This document shows positions 39,048 through 52,850 of a stretch of 64,000 nucleotides of DNA, one piece after another. Source of the DNA: Dactylellina haptotyla (taxonomy: Eukaryota; Ascomycota; Orbiliomycetes; Orbiliales; Orbiliaceae); contig CM062379.1 of the NCBI GenBank assembly GCA_031310005.1, forward strand, positions 6,820,001 through 6,884,000. The letters run 5' to 3'. The number at the start of each line of letters is the position of its first letter. Position 1 is the stretch's first letter. Under the pieces are notes generated by a model. That model saw nothing but the letters and a program-made list of their open reading frames with translations, was not told where the DNA came from and searched no databases. The translations under genes were made by a program, and so were the position numbers.

Positions 39048-39646
39048 TTTCACAATCGACAACTGCTGCTGTGGTATCCTTCTGTATAATTATTTTATAT
39101 ATGCACTTAGGATAGCAAATAGATCGATTTCGGTAACTTCCGGTTGAAAAGCCTGGTAGTTGAGATGGCAGAATGGATACACGCGACGGATGGCTCCCAT
39201 AAACCGATACGCACACCCTAAGTACTGGAGCCGACCTATTAGCCCTGAAAAATTCTGTCCCAAGCTCTCAATGCCCAAAAGCGTTAAATAGTCGACTCTG
39301 CGTCCGATAGACTTACTGTTACAGGGTAGCGTGGAACGTGGGGTGTTTGGTGGGACGGCGGCCGAAAGTCGAGACGAGGAGCCGCTCAATTTTTTTGGCA
39401 GGGAAAACGTAACAAACGAAAATTTTATTTCTGCCGACCTCTTCCCGCACATCATCCCACTTCACCTCAGCAAGGCGCTACCTCCCTCACGCCTCCACGG
39501 CATCGACAAAGCTACCGACATCCCAGTAACGGTCACCGATAGCATAGCATCAGGTTCGCAGTTAGTTGGAATACGGGCCTCTGCTACGTTTTCTCGCTCT
39601 TCTTCCTGCCTATACCGTCGGCCTCAATACCATCACGACAATCACG
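39048..39646. promoter_or_regulatory. divergent promoter, THADA / TIM23
   Basis: 599 bases separate the two start codons. Two tRNA-modification and mitochondrial-import genes fired from one region is plausible for co-regulated housekeeping genes. Frames inside it (39090-39455 minus, 39331-39759 plus) are shadows. Confidence 0.6.
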
Positions 39647-40359
39647 ATGTCCTGGTGGGATACGATAACTGGTCGCAAGACCAAGTCTACGGTTACTCCC
39701 CTCGTGGAGCCTCACGACGTATTCGTTCCGACACCGTTCGACCCTTCCACTGCTGTTGATGTTTCTTCGTTTTTAAATACACCCACTTTCGACCCCACGT
39801 CCTTACATCCGCTAGCTGGTCTCGATGAAGGCTTGGAATACCTTAAACTCGAAGACGAGGCCCTTTCAGACTTACCCGGATCACACTCCGTACTGCCCTC
39901 GAGAGGGTGGAGTGACGATCTTTGCTACGGTACAGGTACAACATACCTAGCCGCCTTATCGATAGGTGGCGCTTGGGGTTTTGTTGAGGGTGTGAACCGG
40001 AGCCCCGCCGGCGCGCCACCAAAGCTGAAGCTCAACAGTATTCTTAACGGAATGACGAGGAGGGGACCTTTCCTTGGAAATAGTGCTGGTGTGATAGCGT
40101 TAGTTTACAATGGTATCAACAGCACCATTGGACATTTCCGAGGGAAGCACGATACAGCAAACAGCGTTGTTGCTGGTGCTTTGAGCGGGGCTCTCTTCAA
40201 GAGGTAAGAGTAATACGAAAACGACTATATACATGAGCGAAACTAATATTATTTGTTCCTTCCAATAGTACCAGGGGCGTGCGACCAATGCTTATTGCCT
40301 CTGGAATTACCGGTAGCGTGGCCGGTGTCTGGGCAGTTTCTCGAAAAGCGTTCCTGTGA
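39647..40359 (+). CDS. TIM23: TIM23, inner-membrane presequence translocase channel subunit
   Basis: Exons 39647-40203 and 40269-40359 (65-base intron, phase 2) encode 215 residues, like yeast Tim23 (222). It carries an N-terminal intermembrane-space part (residues 1 to about 95, with DPTSLHPLAGLDEGLEYLKL as the Tim50/presequence-binding region) and a C-terminal Tim17/22/23 domain of four spans with Gly-x3-Gly packing (SIGGAWGFVEGV, LGNSAGVIALVYNGINSTIG, DTANSVVAGALSGALFK, ASGITGSVAGVW). The protein forms the TIM23 complex that takes presequence proteins into the matrix and inner membrane. The start MSWWDTITGRK is preferred to an upstream Met, whose extension is not Tim23-like. Confidence 0.95.
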
Positions 40360-41185: not shown

Positions 41186-42250
41186 ATGCGAAATATCGTA
41201 GTCTATGCGCTGCTAGCCACATATGGTTGCAATGCAGCCGAGATCCGACGGCGCCAGCAAGCTATCAGCATTGCACCACCAAGGGTTATTATACCTGGGG
41301 GTGGTACCGGAACGGCCCCGAATGCAAGTCCTGTTCAAAACTACTATGCAAAGCCGGGCTCTTCCCCAATCCCTGCGAATACGGGAAATCAAAATATCGC
41401 CATTCCGAATTCAATGCCACCGGTAGGAGGGCCTACTGTATGGCCATCTCCGGGTCCTGGAAATATGGTCCCTCCTCTAGGGCAAGGCCCGATGGGTGGA
41501 CCGGGTCAGTCAGCACCTCAGAGCGAGCCAGGCCAATCAGCACCTCAGAACGGACCACCAGACCAATCAGTATCGCAGAATGGGCAAGATCAGAATTCGC
41601 CTCACGGAGATTTCGGTCCCGCACCACTAAACTCGGACGGTTTACAATTGCCACCAGACGACAGTGGAGTACCCCCTCCAGCTGTTGATCAGAATACAGT
41701 TGAAGCGGTAGCAGCCCTTTCGGACCCACAAAGAGATGACCTCTTAGCCTCAACAGACGCCGCAGAATTCGGCGACGGGTCCGAACAATTCCAAGAATTG
41801 ATGCTCCAAGCTACGAAGGACAAACTCATCACTATCAGCTCAGAAGTGCAAGCCCAAGGTCTCGACTTGACTGAAGATATAGAAGACCCGGAGACCGTAC
41901 CGCCAGTTGAAATATACTCAGATATTCAAGATTTAGGTACTAACGTTACTGAGAAATCGCAAATGCTGAGCGAAACCATGCAACAGCTCTTAGACGTCGC
42001 GCTTGATGAAGTACGAAATAATGAAACCTTAGATGCGACGGAAGTTCAGCCTGATGGCACGGTTGTCAAGTACAGGAAAGATAAACGATGGCTATTCGCT
42101 ATTATCAGTACGTTAAGTTTGATATACGAGGGTGCAAAGCTCGCAGCGGATATCTACGACACGGGTGCCAAGATGTATAAGACGTTCAAGGAGACCAGAA
42201 ATGGCGCTAATACAGGACCAGTATCCCTGGGAAAGGGCGCAAAAGCGTAG
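41186..42250 (+). CDS. secreted precursor A with C-terminal Lys-Arg-released hydrophobic peptide
   Basis: Uninterrupted 354-codon frame. It starts with a signal peptide (residues 1 to about 18, MRNIVVYALLATYGCNAAEI) followed at once by a tribasic RRRQ. Then comes a Pro/Gly/Gln-rich disordered region (about 30-165, with SAPQ/SVSQNG near-repeats) and a helical acidic domain (about 170-290). A KDKR site at 298-301 precedes a 53-residue tail that begins with a strongly hydrophobic helix (WLFAIISTLSLIYEGAKLAA) and ends basic. Several N-x-T/S sites fit passage through the secretory path. Layout and motifs (RRRQ...IIPGGGT) parallel the next gene, so the two look like tandem paralogues. No known enzyme domain. 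Kex2 cleavage at KR and the function of the tail are inferred; it might instead be a membrane anchor. Confidence 0.8.
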   Translation: MRNIVVYALLATYGCNAAEIRRRQQAISIAPPRVIIPGGGTGTAPNASPVQNYYAKPGSSPIPANTGNQNIAIPNSMPPVGGPTVWPSPGPGNMVPPLGQGPMGGPGQSAPQSEPGQSAPQNGPPDQSVSQNGQDQNSPHGDFGPAPLNSDGLQLPPDDSGVPPPAVDQNTVEAVAALSDPQRDDLLASTDAAEFGDGSEQFQELMLQATKDKLITISSEVQAQGLDLTEDIEDPETVPPVEIYSDIQDLGTNVTEKSQMLSETMQQLLDVALDEVRNNETLDATEVQPDGTVVKYRKDKRWLFAIISTLSLIYEGAKLAADIYDTGAKMYKTFKETRNGANTGPVSLGKGAKA

Positions 42251-42883
42251 ATTATAAGTATCTTGAACTTGGTTTACAGCCATGAAAACAACCTATTCGA
42301 CCTTGTTTCCTAGCTATTTTCATTGATATAACAATTGTCCAGTAGTTACTAGTAGTTATTAAGTCTCATTTTGTCCACTGTCTTAGCTAGACCGGTATCA
42401 AACAACCCCATAATAGAACGATCTCTTTGGTGATTCCAGAGTTCGCCGAAAGTGCTCATGCGAGGTAAATATTTCATTTCGTACCTCCATCCCCTGTAAC
42501 AGGTACAAGGGACAAGTCGAATCTTAAATCCACGATATCTAGCTCAACTGGTCGCACTACGTCCCACGCACGACCACAGCTAAATTATAAGCACGCACTG
42601 GAAAAGAACATAAAAATGCTTATACAAAGCCCTCAAAATCATAGAACTCACTCAAAAATCATTTGTATTCCTTATAGAATATAAAATCTCGCTTGCCCCC
42701 GTGAATGCCACGTTTCAAGGCGTGCACGATTTTGAGGATATACACGACACTTGTCAAGCGTAGCGCCAGACTAGACTTGCCTTATAGGAAATACCACACG
42801 TTCCAACACAGACCACGGACGTAAAAGAGCAGCAGTTTCGAATATTTCTTTTGAGGCAGTAAGAGAGTTCAAGAATAAGGAAA
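42251..42883. other. intergenic between the tandem secreted genes
   Basis: 633 bases; promoter of secreted precursor B. A minus frame at 42754-42957 is not supported. Confidence 0.5.
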
Positions 42884-43963
42884 ATGCCACAAAGAAGTCG
42901 ATTTTTAGCTGTGGCCGTGAGCGCGCTCCTCGTGAGCTGCTCATGGGCTACACACATTAATCTTGGAGGTACAGAGAGTGACCCTTCGGGATTATCATCT
43001 CACCTAGAATCTGGCAGGTTACCAAAGTTACAGTCCAAGCTATTCAAACGACAAACGGAGATTCCTCTCGATCAGGGCCAAGAGATCGTTCCGGGTGGCG
43101 ATACTTCCCAGGTGCAAGATAATGCCCAAGCGGTAAATAACGATACACAACAAGGCGCAAACGACGCCCAGGCCACCCAGGACGCCGGACAAGCAGCCCA
43201 AGATGCCGATAAAATGCCCCAGGACGCCAACAGCCAGCAGCAAACCGACGAAGGAGCTCAATTGGGAGATATGACAGCTACTGCGGATGACATAAAGAAC
43301 CAAAAAGATGGCAATACTCTGGTCGAGACAACGCAGAGTGTTATCGAGCAAGCGAGGGATGCAGCAGTTAACAGCACCGGCGTCACCCAGGTCGAGCTGG
43401 ACAATGCTGCCGAGGACTTGCAGGTGATTTCGGCCATGCTGTCCGAGATGCCCGACCCGGCTACAGTCGACGTCTCTGGTAAAGTGAACGGGCAAATCGA
43501 GGATCTTAGGGGTAAACCCCATGAGGAATGTCTGGAGCTTGCCAGAACTCTCCTCTATGAGAACGAAGCGAAGGACTTGCAAATGCAGACTGTAGTTGAG
43601 AGCTTGGTTCCGGTCCTTGCGGGCGTTGTCAACGGTACCATTACCAGCCCGGCGACATCAGATTTAGACCACCCAGATATGGCCATCGTCAATGCTTCAG
43701 ATGCGGCAGATGCAAATTCTGATCTCGCGCAACGTCTCCGCAAGCGAGGAGAGCTAGACAAGAGATTTCTAGGTCTAGCTGCTGCGGGGCTTTTCGGCTG
43801 GTTGGGAGTCGGGCTCCAGTTCAAGGCTGAAGTGAACACCCCGCTTGGTAACATTGGTGTCGGTCTCGCCCTGGGTGCTTCAAAGCTCACGGATTCTCCG
43901 CCGAGCACTGCCAAAGAACCAACAGTAGTAATAATAGAAAAGCACCAGCGCCTGTTACAGTGA
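42884..43963 (+). CDS. secreted precursor B with C-terminal Lys-Arg-released Gly-rich hydrophobic peptide
   Basis: A 359-codon frame. Signal peptide about 1-22 (MPQRSRFLAVAVSALLVSCS), a short propeptide ending in LFKRQ, a Gln/Asp/Ala-rich disordered stretch, and a helical acidic domain (about 120-285). Two closely spaced dibasic sites (RLRKR and ELDKR, ending at residues 288 and 294) precede a hydrophobic Gly/Leu/Ala segment (FLGLAAAGLFGWLGVGLQFK). The shared plan with the upstream neighbour (KRQ then IVPGGDT against RRRQ then IIPGGGT, acidic helical middle, KR, hydrophobic end) suggests tandem duplication and strong divergence. The 3' end may be spliced: a GTAACA donor at 43848 and a TTACAG acceptor at 43960 would swap the last 37 residues for a Gln/Asn-rich tail ending at 44232 (411 residues in total). 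Confidence 0.75.
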   Translation: MPQRSRFLAVAVSALLVSCSWATHINLGGTESDPSGLSSHLESGRLPKLQSKLFKRQTEIPLDQGQEIVPGGDTSQVQDNAQAVNNDTQQGANDAQATQDAGQAAQDADKMPQDANSQQQTDEGAQLGDMTATADDIKNQKDGNTLVETTQSVIEQARDAAVNSTGVTQVELDNAAEDLQVISAMLSEMPDPATVDVSGKVNGQIEDLRGKPHEECLELARTLLYENEAKDLQMQTVVESLVPVLAGVVNGTITSPATSDLDHPDMAIVNASDAADANSDLAQRLRKRGELDKRFLGLAAAGLFGWLGVGLQFKAEVNTPLGNIGVGLALGASKLTDSPPSTAKEPTVVIIEKHQRLLQ

Positions 43964-44232
43964 ATGTTATCAATAGCCAGCCACAGCAGCCTCAGCAGCC
44001 TCAGCAGCAACCGCAGCAGATCGATCAACAAGGCTGGAATCAGAATCAAGGCTTCCCCCAGCAAATTGAATATTCCAGTCAGCAGCCGAACCCTACAGTC
44101 CCTGGTTGGAACCAGAACAATTACGGCAAGAACCAAGATTTCCCCTACAATGGCAATAACGCCTTTAATACCGGTAAAGGCACGAAACAATCGAATAATA
44201 GGAACTACAAGATACGCAAGTTTAAGTTTTAG
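43961..44232 (+). other. possible alternative Gln/Asn-rich last exon of secreted precursor B
   Basis: An open frame overlapping the unspliced stop of precursor B and reading NSQPQQPQQPQQQPQQID, then Asn/Trp/Gly-rich repeats (GWNQNQG, GWNQNNYG) to a basic end (RNYKIRKFKF). Joined to 43847 by a 113-base GT-AG intron it stays in frame. The composition is prion-like or adhesive. Either form could be the main one. Confidence 0.5.
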
Positions 44233-44534: not shown

Positions 44535-46165
44535 CTACTTGTTCAAAATCGCAACCAAAAGCCTCTCAAAGTCGCCGCTAGTCTCGTCCCTAACTCTAGC
44601 CACCAAGTCCTTCCCGTACAGTTTCTGATAAGCCGCTTTGATCGCTGGGATGGCGCCAGGAACCCAGTGGGCGGTGATGAGTCTGAACGCCAACTCTTCG
44701 TCTCTGGTTCCCATTCCCTTCATGGTGCCCTCGATCAATTCTGCGTCTCTCTTCGCCTTATCTCTCACGCCTCTCACAATGTACAATAGAGATTCTTCTT
44801 GATGTCCGCTGAATTCCTTCTTAATCAACGACTCAACCGGGATATGGTAAGTCTTCTCGTATTCAGTAGCGATAGCGGCGATGGTAGCATCGTTATTCTT
44901 GATGAATATTCTAGAAACCTCCTTCTCAGCTGTACCGGCTCTTCCTTCCGTGGCGTTAAACAGCGCCTTCACTTCGGCGGTGACATGCATGGGGTTCACA
45001 CCGACAGAATCCTCAGTTCGAGTCGCGGACATCACCATGGTGTACATGTCCTTTTCGGAACCGCTGAGGTCATCTTTGACAGTGGATTCCATGGTCTTGC
45101 CGAATTTCGCCTTGAACGAGGTTTTAATTGCGTTCATGTCCGCATTACTCCTGCCGAGAAGTGCGAGGTCGAGAAGTTCCTCCTTGGTGCCGATGCGATC
45201 GGTGGCGTGGTTGACTAGCCAGACGAAGAAGTTCAGCGGACCTCTGCAGAGGGCCATCAAGCCGTCCTCGAGGTTTCCGCGGGTCTTGTCTTCGATTAAG
45301 GATAGCAAGGGCTTCTTGACATCCGCGATGTATTTTTGGTTCAAAGATTCTATCTGCAGGGGGGAGAGTTTTACAAAGGTGGCGATTAATGCCTTCTCAT
45401 CAGTGTTGAAGCCCTTGCAAGCCTTCCTAATGGTTTCAACGTCATGGGTGGCGTTGTAGGTGGGGTCGGTTTGGTGAGCGAGGAAGCCTACGGACAGAGG
45501 ACCCAGAGGTGCAGATGGGCCAGCCATCGAATGTTGGGTAGGTGCTTGCTGGTAGCCTGCTTGAGGAGGACCGGTGGGAGGACCGGTGGGAGGTGGTGCG
45601 CCACCCCACTGCTGCTGCGGTGGGTAGCCCTGCGGCTGCTGTTGATAACCGCCAGGCTGTTGTTGATAGCCTTGCGGTGGAGGAGCACCCCATTGCTGTT
45701 GAGGCGGGTACCCTTGAGGGGGAGGCGCACCCCACTGTTGCTGCTGCTGAGGATAGCCCTGAGGAGGAGGAGGACCCCACTGCTGCTGCGGTTGACCCCA
45801 CTGCTGTTGAGGCTGGCCCCATTGCTGCTGCGGTGGCTGTTGGTATCCGCGGTTTTGGTCACCCTCTGAGAAACGATATTTTGTTAGAACCGAAACCATA
45901 TCTATATCTTTTACTTGAAATTCAGAATATTTTACATACGAGGTGCGCCTTGTGGAGGTCCTTGGGGGGCTCCTTGAGGAGGAGGAGGACCTTGAGGAGG
46001 ACCCTGGGGAGGATATTGCTGATATTGTCCCTGAGGTGGACCCCACTGCTGCTGAGGTTGTCCCCATTGAGCTTGACCCCACTGCTGCTGCTGACCCCAC
46101 TGCTGTTGCTGGTCACCAGTCGGTGGTGGCCCTTGAGGAGGAGGTTGTTGTTGATGGTCCGCCAT
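44535..46165 (-). CDS. fungal annexin with Gln/Gly/Pro-rich N-terminal extension
   Basis: Exons 45940-46165 and 44535-45865, joined by a 74-base intron, give 518 residues. The first about 200 residues are low-complexity near-repeats of QQQWGxPPPQGY type (prion-like, possibly phase-separating). The rest holds four annexin repeats: first from FLAHQTDPTYNATHDV (GFNTDEKALIATFV), second from ELLDLALLGRS, third from NPMHVTAEVKALFNA, fourth KGMGTRDEELAFRLI with the intact type II calcium loop GMGTRDE. The first and fourth repeats look best conserved; the second and third are diverged, as usual in fungal annexins. Annexins bind acidic phospholipids in a calcium-dependent way. The long Q/P/G head is typical of Pezizomycotina annexin C-like proteins. 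Confidence 0.95.
45580..46135 (-). repeat. degenerate tandem repeats encoding the annexin head
   Basis: Imperfect units of about 21-33 bases rich in CAGCAGCAATGGGG and CCTCCTCAAGG, interrupted by the intron. They encode the QQQWG/PPQGYP repeats and are a likely site of length variation. Confidence 0.7.
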
Positions 46166-47783: not shown

Positions 47784-47897
47784 AAAAAAAGTCGAGCTCT
47801 CCGCGAGGAGATGGTCATCCTTGTGCAGGGGCCATGCTAATCTTCTCTGTATTGTAATGGTATACGACCTGACCCACTGGGCCAACCAGCCAGGCTG
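47784..47897 (-). ncRNA. U6 spliceosomal snRNA
   Basis: The minus strand carries the invariant U6 core: ACAGAGAAGATTAGCATGG (from 47850) followed by CCCCTGCACAAGGATGAC, then a short 3' stem region and a T7 terminator (47784-47790), as expected for RNA polymerase III. ACAGAG pairs with the 5' splice site, and the AGC/ISL region pairs with U2 and binds the catalytic metals. The 5' end is inferred at about 47897 from the distance to a TATA element (47922-47927) and from the usual about 45 bases before ACAGAG. The 5' stem is not conserved and was not used. The gene begins about 46 bases after the stop codon of the TTL gene on the same strand. Confidence 0.9.
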
Positions 47898-51408: not shown

Positions 51409-52850
51409 CTAGACGGAGATGTCATCTGCAGGAGCTTTCGATCTTGTCCGGGACGCGATGCTGGCTCTACGCTCAGGCGGCACAGCCGGGGCCTCTTTCT
51501 TTGTCTTTGTCTTCTTCTTGGGTGTTGTTGTAGCTTGCTCGACTGGTTTCTCAGCTACTGGTTCCTGTGGGTTGGCTTCTGGTTTAGCATCAGTTGGGTG
51601 AGCTTCGGGTGCTGCCGGATCCTGATCTTGTTCCTCTGCAGGTGGCGCTGGTTCCTCTTCTTCGACTCTTGGCTTCTTGGGTTCCGGCTCTGGTACTGCT
51701 GCAGGAACTTCCTTTGCAGGCTCCTCTTTTTCAGTGGCAGAAGGCTCTTCTTCTGATGCCGTAGCCTGGACTGGGGGCTCCTCGGACCTTTCCCGTTTGT
51801 CTCCAACTGACGCCTCTAGGGTTGGTTGTTTCTCCGGGGTTGGCGCTTTGTTATCTTCGCGGGTATCCATTTTATCTTCGTAGACCATAGTCGGCTGCGC
51901 AGCTGGGTGAAGTTCTTCGTTTTCTTTGGTGTTGCGATCAGGGGAATCATGGCCGTTCATTTTATCATTCGCATCTCGCTCTTCCGCGAGCTGCTTTTGC
52001 TCTTCATAGGATAGATTCGCTTCTTCTTTCTCTTGAGCGGTATCTGGCGGCCTGGTTATTGGCGCCGATTGGCGCGGGGTTGGGAACGGCTTGTGCAAAG
52101 CACCCTCCGGCTGAGAATTTTGCTGCGGTTCTTCTTGTTCTTCCGGAGCCGGAGCATGCGATTGCAATTCTTGATTTTGCTGTGGTTGCTGGGGTTGCTT
52201 CTCTGCAGCAGCGGCCTGCTCTTCCTGCTCGCGCTGAACAGCATGATGGGCATCAAATATCTTCTCGAGCTCGCTGGCCCGTTTGACGACATCCGTTCCG
52301 TCTTGTTCGAGGTGGACGGCAGGGTTTGAAGGTTCGGCGTTTCTGGTAATCGTGTTGCCGTTGGCGGACTGGATCGAGATGGAGCCGTGGTCCTTGACTT
52401 CCGTGACGGTACCGGTTGGGTGGCCTTGGCCCCAGTTCCATTGCGCTAAGAGACGTTCACAGGTCAATACGGCATTCACCCAGTTGAAGTTATAGTCCAA
52501 TATTCTACATCATATTTTATATTGGTGAACAAAGAACCAGACAACGCAAAATAGCCAACAATGTACTCAGGCTCACTCTTTCTGCCACGGATCAAAGCCA
52601 CATGCTTGGAAGAGCTCATATCTTGTGATAAAAGTCTCCTCTACGGATTTGCATCTCGATAAGAGCTGCTATATAGCAGAATTCGAGAGGCTGGCTGCAA
52701 ACCAGTCGTGGATGATGCTCCGCAATTGGTGGGAGCTGAGAGAGTGACGGCATGCACACCAGAGCTCGCCCAATCATGTTGCGGATAGCCAACCGAGGCT
52801 AGCCAATAGGAAGTCGACTTACCTTGATCGCCGGGTTTAAAGTCTGTCAT
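51409..52850 (-). CDS. Hva1-type TUDOR-domain protein with long acidic tail
   Basis: Exons 52823-52850 and 51409-52445 (354 residues). A 377-base intron splits the domain after residue 9; joining gives MTDFKPGDQAQWNWGQGHPT, then GTVTEVKDHG, ITRNAEPSNPAVHLEQDGTD and VVKRASEL, the full signature of the small TUDOR-like fold named for hypervirulence-associated proteins (about residues 1-65). The rest is low-complexity: Gln-rich, then Glu/Pro/Ala-rich, ending in a Lys-rich run (PKKKTKTKKE) and SIASRTRSKAP, suggesting nuclear or chromatin-like binding. The family name comes from association in pathogens; the fold is also common in saprobes and in bacteria, so the name does not imply virulence here. 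Confidence 0.9.

Follow-up and report, generated by a model that had tools for sequence, protein, structure and literature searches.

The closest described counterparts of the locus considered here are fungal secreted precursors cut at basic sites by the protease kexin (Kex2). Ece1 of Candida albicans is described as carrying seven Lys-Arg (KR) motifs that yield eight peptides, the third of which is the toxin and has its C-terminal Arg trimmed by Kex1 (PMC12153327); this toxin, candidalysin, is kept from aggregating by the flanking pro-peptides (PMC12153327). In Ustilago maydis, kexin sites separate the ten conserved repeats of the Rep1 precursor (PMC2515848), and the repellent peptides of Rep1 form fibrils on hyphae (PMC8528282). 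The KEPs (KEX2-processed repeat proteins) were found by a screen that requires a motif to recur three times or more with sites between the copies (PMC6339444), and K2PP effectors are described as having an N-terminal pro-domain that kexin removes before secretion and that is sought in the N-terminal half of the sequence (PMC8528282). We set beside these systems two adjacent genes, here called A and B, from Dactylellina haptotyla, a nematode-trapping fungus that forms adhesive knobs (PMC3828140). Both lie in a 64-kb window (the whole stretch of DNA that was analysed, 64,000 nucleotides), and an earlier note, made from the sequence of this window, had proposed them as a tandem pair of Kex2-processed peptide precursors.

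A and B are each encoded by one open reading frame (ORF), side by side on the same strand and located as the earlier note had claimed (Table 1), and most of the anatomy it had described was found as well. Each protein begins with a hydrophobic, signal-peptide-like segment, supported by hydropathy and a crude signal-peptide score (residues 1-22 in B), followed by an early basic-Gln site and a PGG block, namely RRR/Q and IIPGGGT in A and KR/Q and IVPGGDT in B (slashes mark predicted cuts). Hydrophilic low-complexity regions follow in both: in A some 130 residues with much Pro, Gly and Gln, in B an Ala/Gln/Asp-rich region. Each leads into an acidic middle. Finally a late KR, at residues 300-301 in A and 293-294 in B, immediately precedes the part of the mature chain with the highest hydrophobicity; the top 15-mer begins 1 residue past this KR in A and 0 residues past it in B, and no dibasic site follows the start of the hydrophobic tail in either protein. 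The chance of a random KR falling 0-2 residues ahead of the top 15-mer was ~0.0097 for A, whose mature chain has a single KR, and ~0.0285 for B, which has three, with a tolerance picked after the sequences were seen. Net charge divides at the same place, being -23 (A) and -27 (B) in the pro-regions versus +3 and +1 in the tails.

When we looked for this plan in 264 kb, made up of the window, ten stretches of 10 kb around it and ten more on another contig (C2), it was present in 2 of 101 ORFs of at least 150 residues and in 2 of the 10 with a crude signal-peptide score, both being A and B themselves; in this count the thresholds were set after A and B had been seen, introns were ignored, antisense ORFs were included and half of the extra stretches came from the window's own neighbourhood. 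The protease that the plan calls for also appears to be available, as a profile search of the genome identified one kexin locus with a P-domain match, where one ORF of 333 residues contains a Peptidase_S8 match of 106.8 bits as well as the P-domain, with 61.4 bits. The reading frame of the P-domain match meets one internal stop, presumably an intron. The proposal of a Kex2-processed precursor is thus borne out as regards the plan and the kexin gene, and it fails for the repeat class, as there are no repeated peptides between KR sites.

Our preferred account, which we hold tentatively and at somewhat below an even chance, is that A and B are kexin-matured single-peptide precursors that free membrane-active or self-assembling tails. 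The open frames, the sites, the positions of the hydrophobic stretches and the kexin gene are what we observe, and from secretion onward we infer the following course. The signal peptide would route both proteins into the secretory pathway, where late-Golgi kexin would trim a short N-terminal piece at RRR/Q (A) or KR/Q (B) and would cut again at DKR/W after R301 (A) and DKR/F after R294 (B). The long acidic pro-region may hold the sticky C-terminal segment soluble in transit, a suggestion made by analogy with the shielding by flanking peptides in the candidalysin precursor (PMC12153327). Once freed, the A tail could act as a membrane-binding amphipathic helix and the B tail as a membrane-inserting or self-assembling Gly/Ala-rich helix, either at the surface of the fungus or at the membranes of its prey; competitors are another conceivable target, and the tails might instead serve as a surface coat.

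The two tails differ from each other. That of A opens with 13 uncharged residues (302-314), then Glu315, and continues as an amphipathic part, whereas that of B has 19 uncharged residues (295-313), rich in Gly, Ala and Leu with a small residue at every fourth position (G297, A301, G305), and a second hydrophobic stretch at about 316-335; the "helix of about 20 residues" of the earlier note is a loose description. Within the A tail there is an 11-residue repeat (311-319 / 322-330), and repeats of this length are typical of lipid-surface helices such as those of apolipoproteins and synuclein. The hydrophobic moment of the A tail was reached by 0.0028 of shuffles for the best-placed 26-mer and by 0.0102 for residues 302-336. 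Upstream of the site, the segment that we propose as a shield for the A tail, which ends ~20 residues before the predicted KR site, has a moment of 0.402 that was reached by 0.0004 of shuffles, though it was one of eight segments tested and its limits were taken from a low-confidence single-sequence structure model, which has a helix there.

Several observations weigh against kexin release of these tails, beginning with the quality of the late sites. Asp at P3 is described as unfavourable for Kex2 (PMC8528282) and, at 0.27, is the second-lowest P3 residue in a Kex2 matrix, the statistics of which favour acidic residues at P1', P2' and P4' (PMC2515848). As for P4, the Leu of B is of the favoured kind in one source (PMC8528282) yet scores 0.09 in the table of the other, where the Lys of A scores 0.72 (PMC2515848). 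Both late junctions read DKR-aromatic-Leu, and they hold W or F at P1', L at P2' and A or L at P4'. The Asp objection is tempered for B, as its predicted cut follows LDKR, the same four residues that end the yeast alpha-factor leader. Beyond the sites, the moment of 26-mers in A peaks over 309-337 and not directly after the KR, several lengths and offsets having been tried, and the B tail is not amphipathic, the moment of residues 295-314 being reached by 0.70 of shuffles. The best 19-residue Kyte-Doolittle mean in B is 1.61, borderline transmembrane; the tails of A and B are dissimilar, their alignment score being equalled by 1949 of 2000 shuffles; and the single-sequence structure models are poor, with a mean predicted local distance difference test (pLDDT) score of 45.0 for A and 38.4 for B. 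One last point is that a long intron of 314-398 bases from a donor at 43592, improbable though conceivable and discussed below, would delete the KR of B and most of its tail.

Another explanation is that A and B stay full-length as surface proteins in which the tails serve as membrane anchors or as helices that associate with membranes, their disordered N-terminal part displayed on the hyphal or knob surface and the KR either a chance occurrence or topogenic and left uncut. The poor look of the late sites agrees with this, as does the mean of B over 295-313, since a single-pass membrane segment is usually recognized by ~19 residues with a Kyte-Doolittle mean of at least 1.6. However, A reaches only 1.44 and has Glu315 right after its 13 uncharged residues; the hydrophobic stretches stop short of the C-terminal end, where a glycosylphosphatidylinositol (GPI) signal would have its own; and a KR stands at the border of the hydrophobic stretch in both proteins. 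Taken together we consider such anchoring unlikely though deserving of attention, and the objection that the earlier note had raised against itself, that the tails might be ordinary anchors, is weakened for A and may hold for B. Less likely again, in our judgement, is that A and B are soluble proteins of the extracellular matrix or adhesive layer of the knob, whose function would reside in the disordered Pro/Gly/Gln-rich parts and the helical middles, with the C-terminal helix used for oligomerisation. The low-complexity Pro/Gly/Gln regions would suit such a role, and so would the model of A, which has helices at 240-278 and 300-341, strands at 283-287 and 293-297 and a block with pLDDT 56-60 over 251-340, and for which prefoldin chains were among the best 50 of 157 Foldseek rows, none of them significant (0 of the 157 rows had E ≤ 0.001, the best being 0.15). 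Against it, the confidence of the model is too low to carry weight, and neither protein belongs to a Pfam or NCBIfam family above threshold. Kexin release also has a bolder version, a two-peptide weapon in which the unlike helices act together on nematode membranes, that of A as an amphipathic lipid binder with 11-residue periodicity and that of B as a Gly/Ala-zipper membrane inserter. By analogy this would be a filamentous-fungal counterpart of candidalysin and of the two-peptide bacteriocins; only the anatomy speaks for it, and we regard it as highly improbable.

A further explanation, compatible with any of the others, is that A and B are unrelated orphan secreted neighbours whose shared plan reflects chance and the general make-up of secreted fungal proteins. 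As the earlier note had stated, similarity between A and B is weak; it is confined to the N-terminal block and marginal there, the best BLASTP match being 36 residues that span the basic-Gln site and the PGG block (E 0.062). Shuffled sequences reached the score of a semi-global alignment in 331 of 2000 cases (regional shuffles) and that of the middles in 290 of 2000, and these, with the tails, favour this explanation; many species-specific orphan secreted proteins are moreover reported for D. haptotyla (PMC3828140). On the other side, no shuffle of 2000 reached the score of the N-terminal block, which was however chosen after the fact, the full-length Smith-Waterman score was reached by 36 of 1000, and the order of features is identical in the two proteins down to their matching late junctions. 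We accordingly give unrelatedness a substantial minority chance. The term "tandem pair" holds in that the genes are adjacent and on the same strand, while duplication is suggested by a marginal homology. The two genes may plausibly have arisen by tandem duplication long ago and then diverged quickly, a course that has been proposed for the infection-expressed small secreted proteins of this fungus (PMC3828140).

Searches for relatives agree with the earlier note that neither protein has a recognised family, as none of the Pfam or NCBIfam matches was above threshold. In Pfam, A had only a sub-threshold match to KxYKxGKxW (E 0.63, 10.5 bits against a cut-off of 23.6) and B had none; in NCBIfam, A matched only RNA polymerase beta' (E 0.037; 11.3 bits where 1437 are required), and the low-complexity part of B matched only MotB (E 0.00022; 21.1 bits where 250 are required) and MAP_0585 (E 0.38), both sub-threshold. 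We read the RNA polymerase beta', MotB and MAP_0585 matches as chance. A sequence search of the PDB to E 10 gave two rows for A (E 0.43 and 2.1) and none for B, and no relatives of either were confirmed in viral, bacterial and archaeal contig collections, a result of little weight as these contain no fungi. The search for further copies in the D. haptotyla genome that the earlier note had suggested returned each gene alone, both with the whole proteins (A to E 0.001, B to E 10) and with the tails and N-terminal blocks (to E 10); each of these searches scored one or two candidates, and distant copies may escape them. Nor was such a precursor in nematode-trapping fungi described among the open-access matches listed, with subscription papers and supplementary gene tables outside the scope of that search.

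That A and B are coding was assessed with a codon log-odds model trained on 4870 codons from eleven ORFs of the window's ORF list, not all of which are verified genes. A scored 0.13 in its stated frame versus -0.34 and -0.372 in the other two, and B 0.156 versus -0.382 and -0.388; the B tail by itself scored 0.096 in frame. With synonymous codons only, the frames of A were not separated (0.007 versus -0.01 and -0.009) and one wrong frame of B scored higher than the stated one (0.014 versus 0.002 and 0.029). As the synonymous-only score is uninformative, the evidence for coding comes from the amino-acid composition and the length of the open frames. The indices of repeat-induced point mutation (RIP), read with their customary meaning and cut-offs, were 0.79 and 1.21 for A and 0.71 and 1.33 for B; these resemble the values of the whole window (0.75 and 1.2), and recent RIP is not seen at either gene.

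The end of B calls for separate comment, since the earlier note had extended the locus to 44232, which is not the end of B and belongs to a Gln-rich open frame in another register (Table 1). The codon log-odds of this frame is -0.253 over 43852-43959, where the frame of B has 0.05, and 0.051 over 43960-44229. No intron of ordinary length that would join B to it was found; the top 20 of the splice scan had GC donors only, and a consensus-filtered GT-AG scan gave four pairs, 314-398 bases long, all with the single donor at 43592. Splicing of B to the Gln-rich frame is thus unsupported, given that the top-ranked donors are GC only and that the GT-AG pairs would take out the KR and the greater part of the tail. 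Three readings of the Gln-rich frame are conceivable: untranslated sequence 3' of B, a short gene of its own, or what was once the end of B before an insertion or deletion shifted the frame. Such a change is possible, whether natural or from the assembly, the D. haptotyla assembly being described as a nanopore one polished with short reads (PMC10580851).

Table 1. Genes A and B, their predicted parts and the overlapping Gln-rich frame (positions in the window; slashes mark predicted cuts).
Feature	Position	Strand	Basis or remark
Gene A	41186..42250	+	single ORF, ATG to stop, 354 residues; orphan secreted precursor candidate
A residues 1-17, signal-peptide-like segment	41186..41236	+	hydropathy and crude signal-peptide score
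A residues 21-41, RRR/Q site (21-23, Q24) and IIPGGGT block	41246..41308	+	sequence; BLASTP match to B at E 0.062
A residues 240-278, acidic amphipathic segment (net -6)	41903..42019	+	proposed tail shield
A residues 299-301, predicted kexin site D-K-R	42080..42088	+	sequence; P3 Asp disfavoured
A residues 302-354, tail (53 residues, net +3, amphipathic)	42089..42247	+	
Gene B	42884..43963	+	single ORF, ATG to stop, 359 residues; orphan secreted precursor candidate
B residues 55-74, KR/Q site (55-56, Q57) and IVPGGDT block	43046..43105	+	
B residues 286-294, RKR-GEL-DKR	43739..43765	+	two close dibasic sites before tail
B residues 295-359, tail (65 residues, net +1)	43766..43960	+	
Gln/Asn-rich open frame, ends KIRKFKF	43852..44232 (open 43852-44229)	+	overlaps then follows B, in another frame

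A and B are flanked by a Tim17/Tim23-family ORF (39566-40207, +) and an annexin ORF (44535-46100, -), the latter with a long Gln/Pro/Gly/Tyr-rich N-terminal part that lies over several tandem DNA repeats. Between the annexin ORF and a tubulin-tyrosine-ligase-like ORF sits a U6 spliceosomal RNA gene (47785-47885, -; 61.9 bits against a gathering score of 44), and an acidic, Pro/Glu-rich ORF at 51409-52500 (-) carries an Hva1_TUDOR domain (59.9 bits). No transfer RNA genes were found within the 64-kb window. The genome used comprises 39,806,839 bases in 11 contigs. It exceeds the published assembly of strain YMF1.03409 (39,557,028 bp, 10 scaffolds; PMC10580851) by 249,811 bases and one contig, and the extra may be the mitochondrial genome. 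Genome-wide, 55 stretches matched the Egh16-like family (PF11327/DUF3129), 8 of them with in-frame stops and with exons counted apart. We take Monacrosporium haptotylum to be the older name of D. haptotyla. For M. haptotylum, 33 Egh16-like genes have been reported (PMC4237727), and the family is described as expanded in several nematode-trapping fungi (PMC10662756). FB_lectin, looked for as a mark of Arthrobotrys oligospora, had no match in this genome or in the 14 controls and is uninformative.

Many of the transcripts strongly induced early in infection by D. haptotyla are reported to be species-specific and to code for secreted proteins of small size, a large share of which are orphans (PMC3828140); "small" there means fewer than 300 residues, a limit that A and B exceed. 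If A and B do release membrane-active or surface-coating helices, some orphan secreted proteins would gain a concrete class of function, and the arrangement itself, with the peak of hydrophobicity starting right after a kexin site, would be a rule for finding others that repeat-based screens would miss; if they are left uncut, they are ordinary orphan surface proteins. We regard the pair as a fair orphan candidate and not as a demonstrated new system.

Compared with the known systems, A and B share some features with each and differ in others. The repeat-based classes do not accommodate them. The KEPs are secreted, as A and B are predicted to be, and have KR sites (PMC6339444), but the KR counts given above and the unlike tails leave nothing that would serve as repeated motifs; in A, the one tandem repeat listed at the DNA level spans 41510-41570 with 2.1 copies and contains no dibasic site, and the list has no entry for B upstream of its stop codon. 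The conserved repeats of Rep1 likewise have no equivalent in either protein. An early KR/Q or RRR/Q after a short N-terminal piece is what A and B share with the K2PP effectors (PMC8528282), whereas their notable site lies in the last fifth. Ece1, with which they were compared by description and not by alignment, resembles their predicted plan in its signal peptide, its KR sites, a hydrophobic-then-hydrophilic helical peptide that follows a KR, and the shielding of that peptide by the remainder of the precursor (PMC12153327, PMC5784256); unlike Ece1, with its series of about eight KR-separated peptides and Kex1-trimmed Arg, A and B each have one C-terminal tail and no KR past it. For a role at the surface, Rep1 provides the precedent, its kexin-released amphipathic peptides coating the hyphae (PMC8528282, PMC2515848) much as the freed tails of A and B might do.

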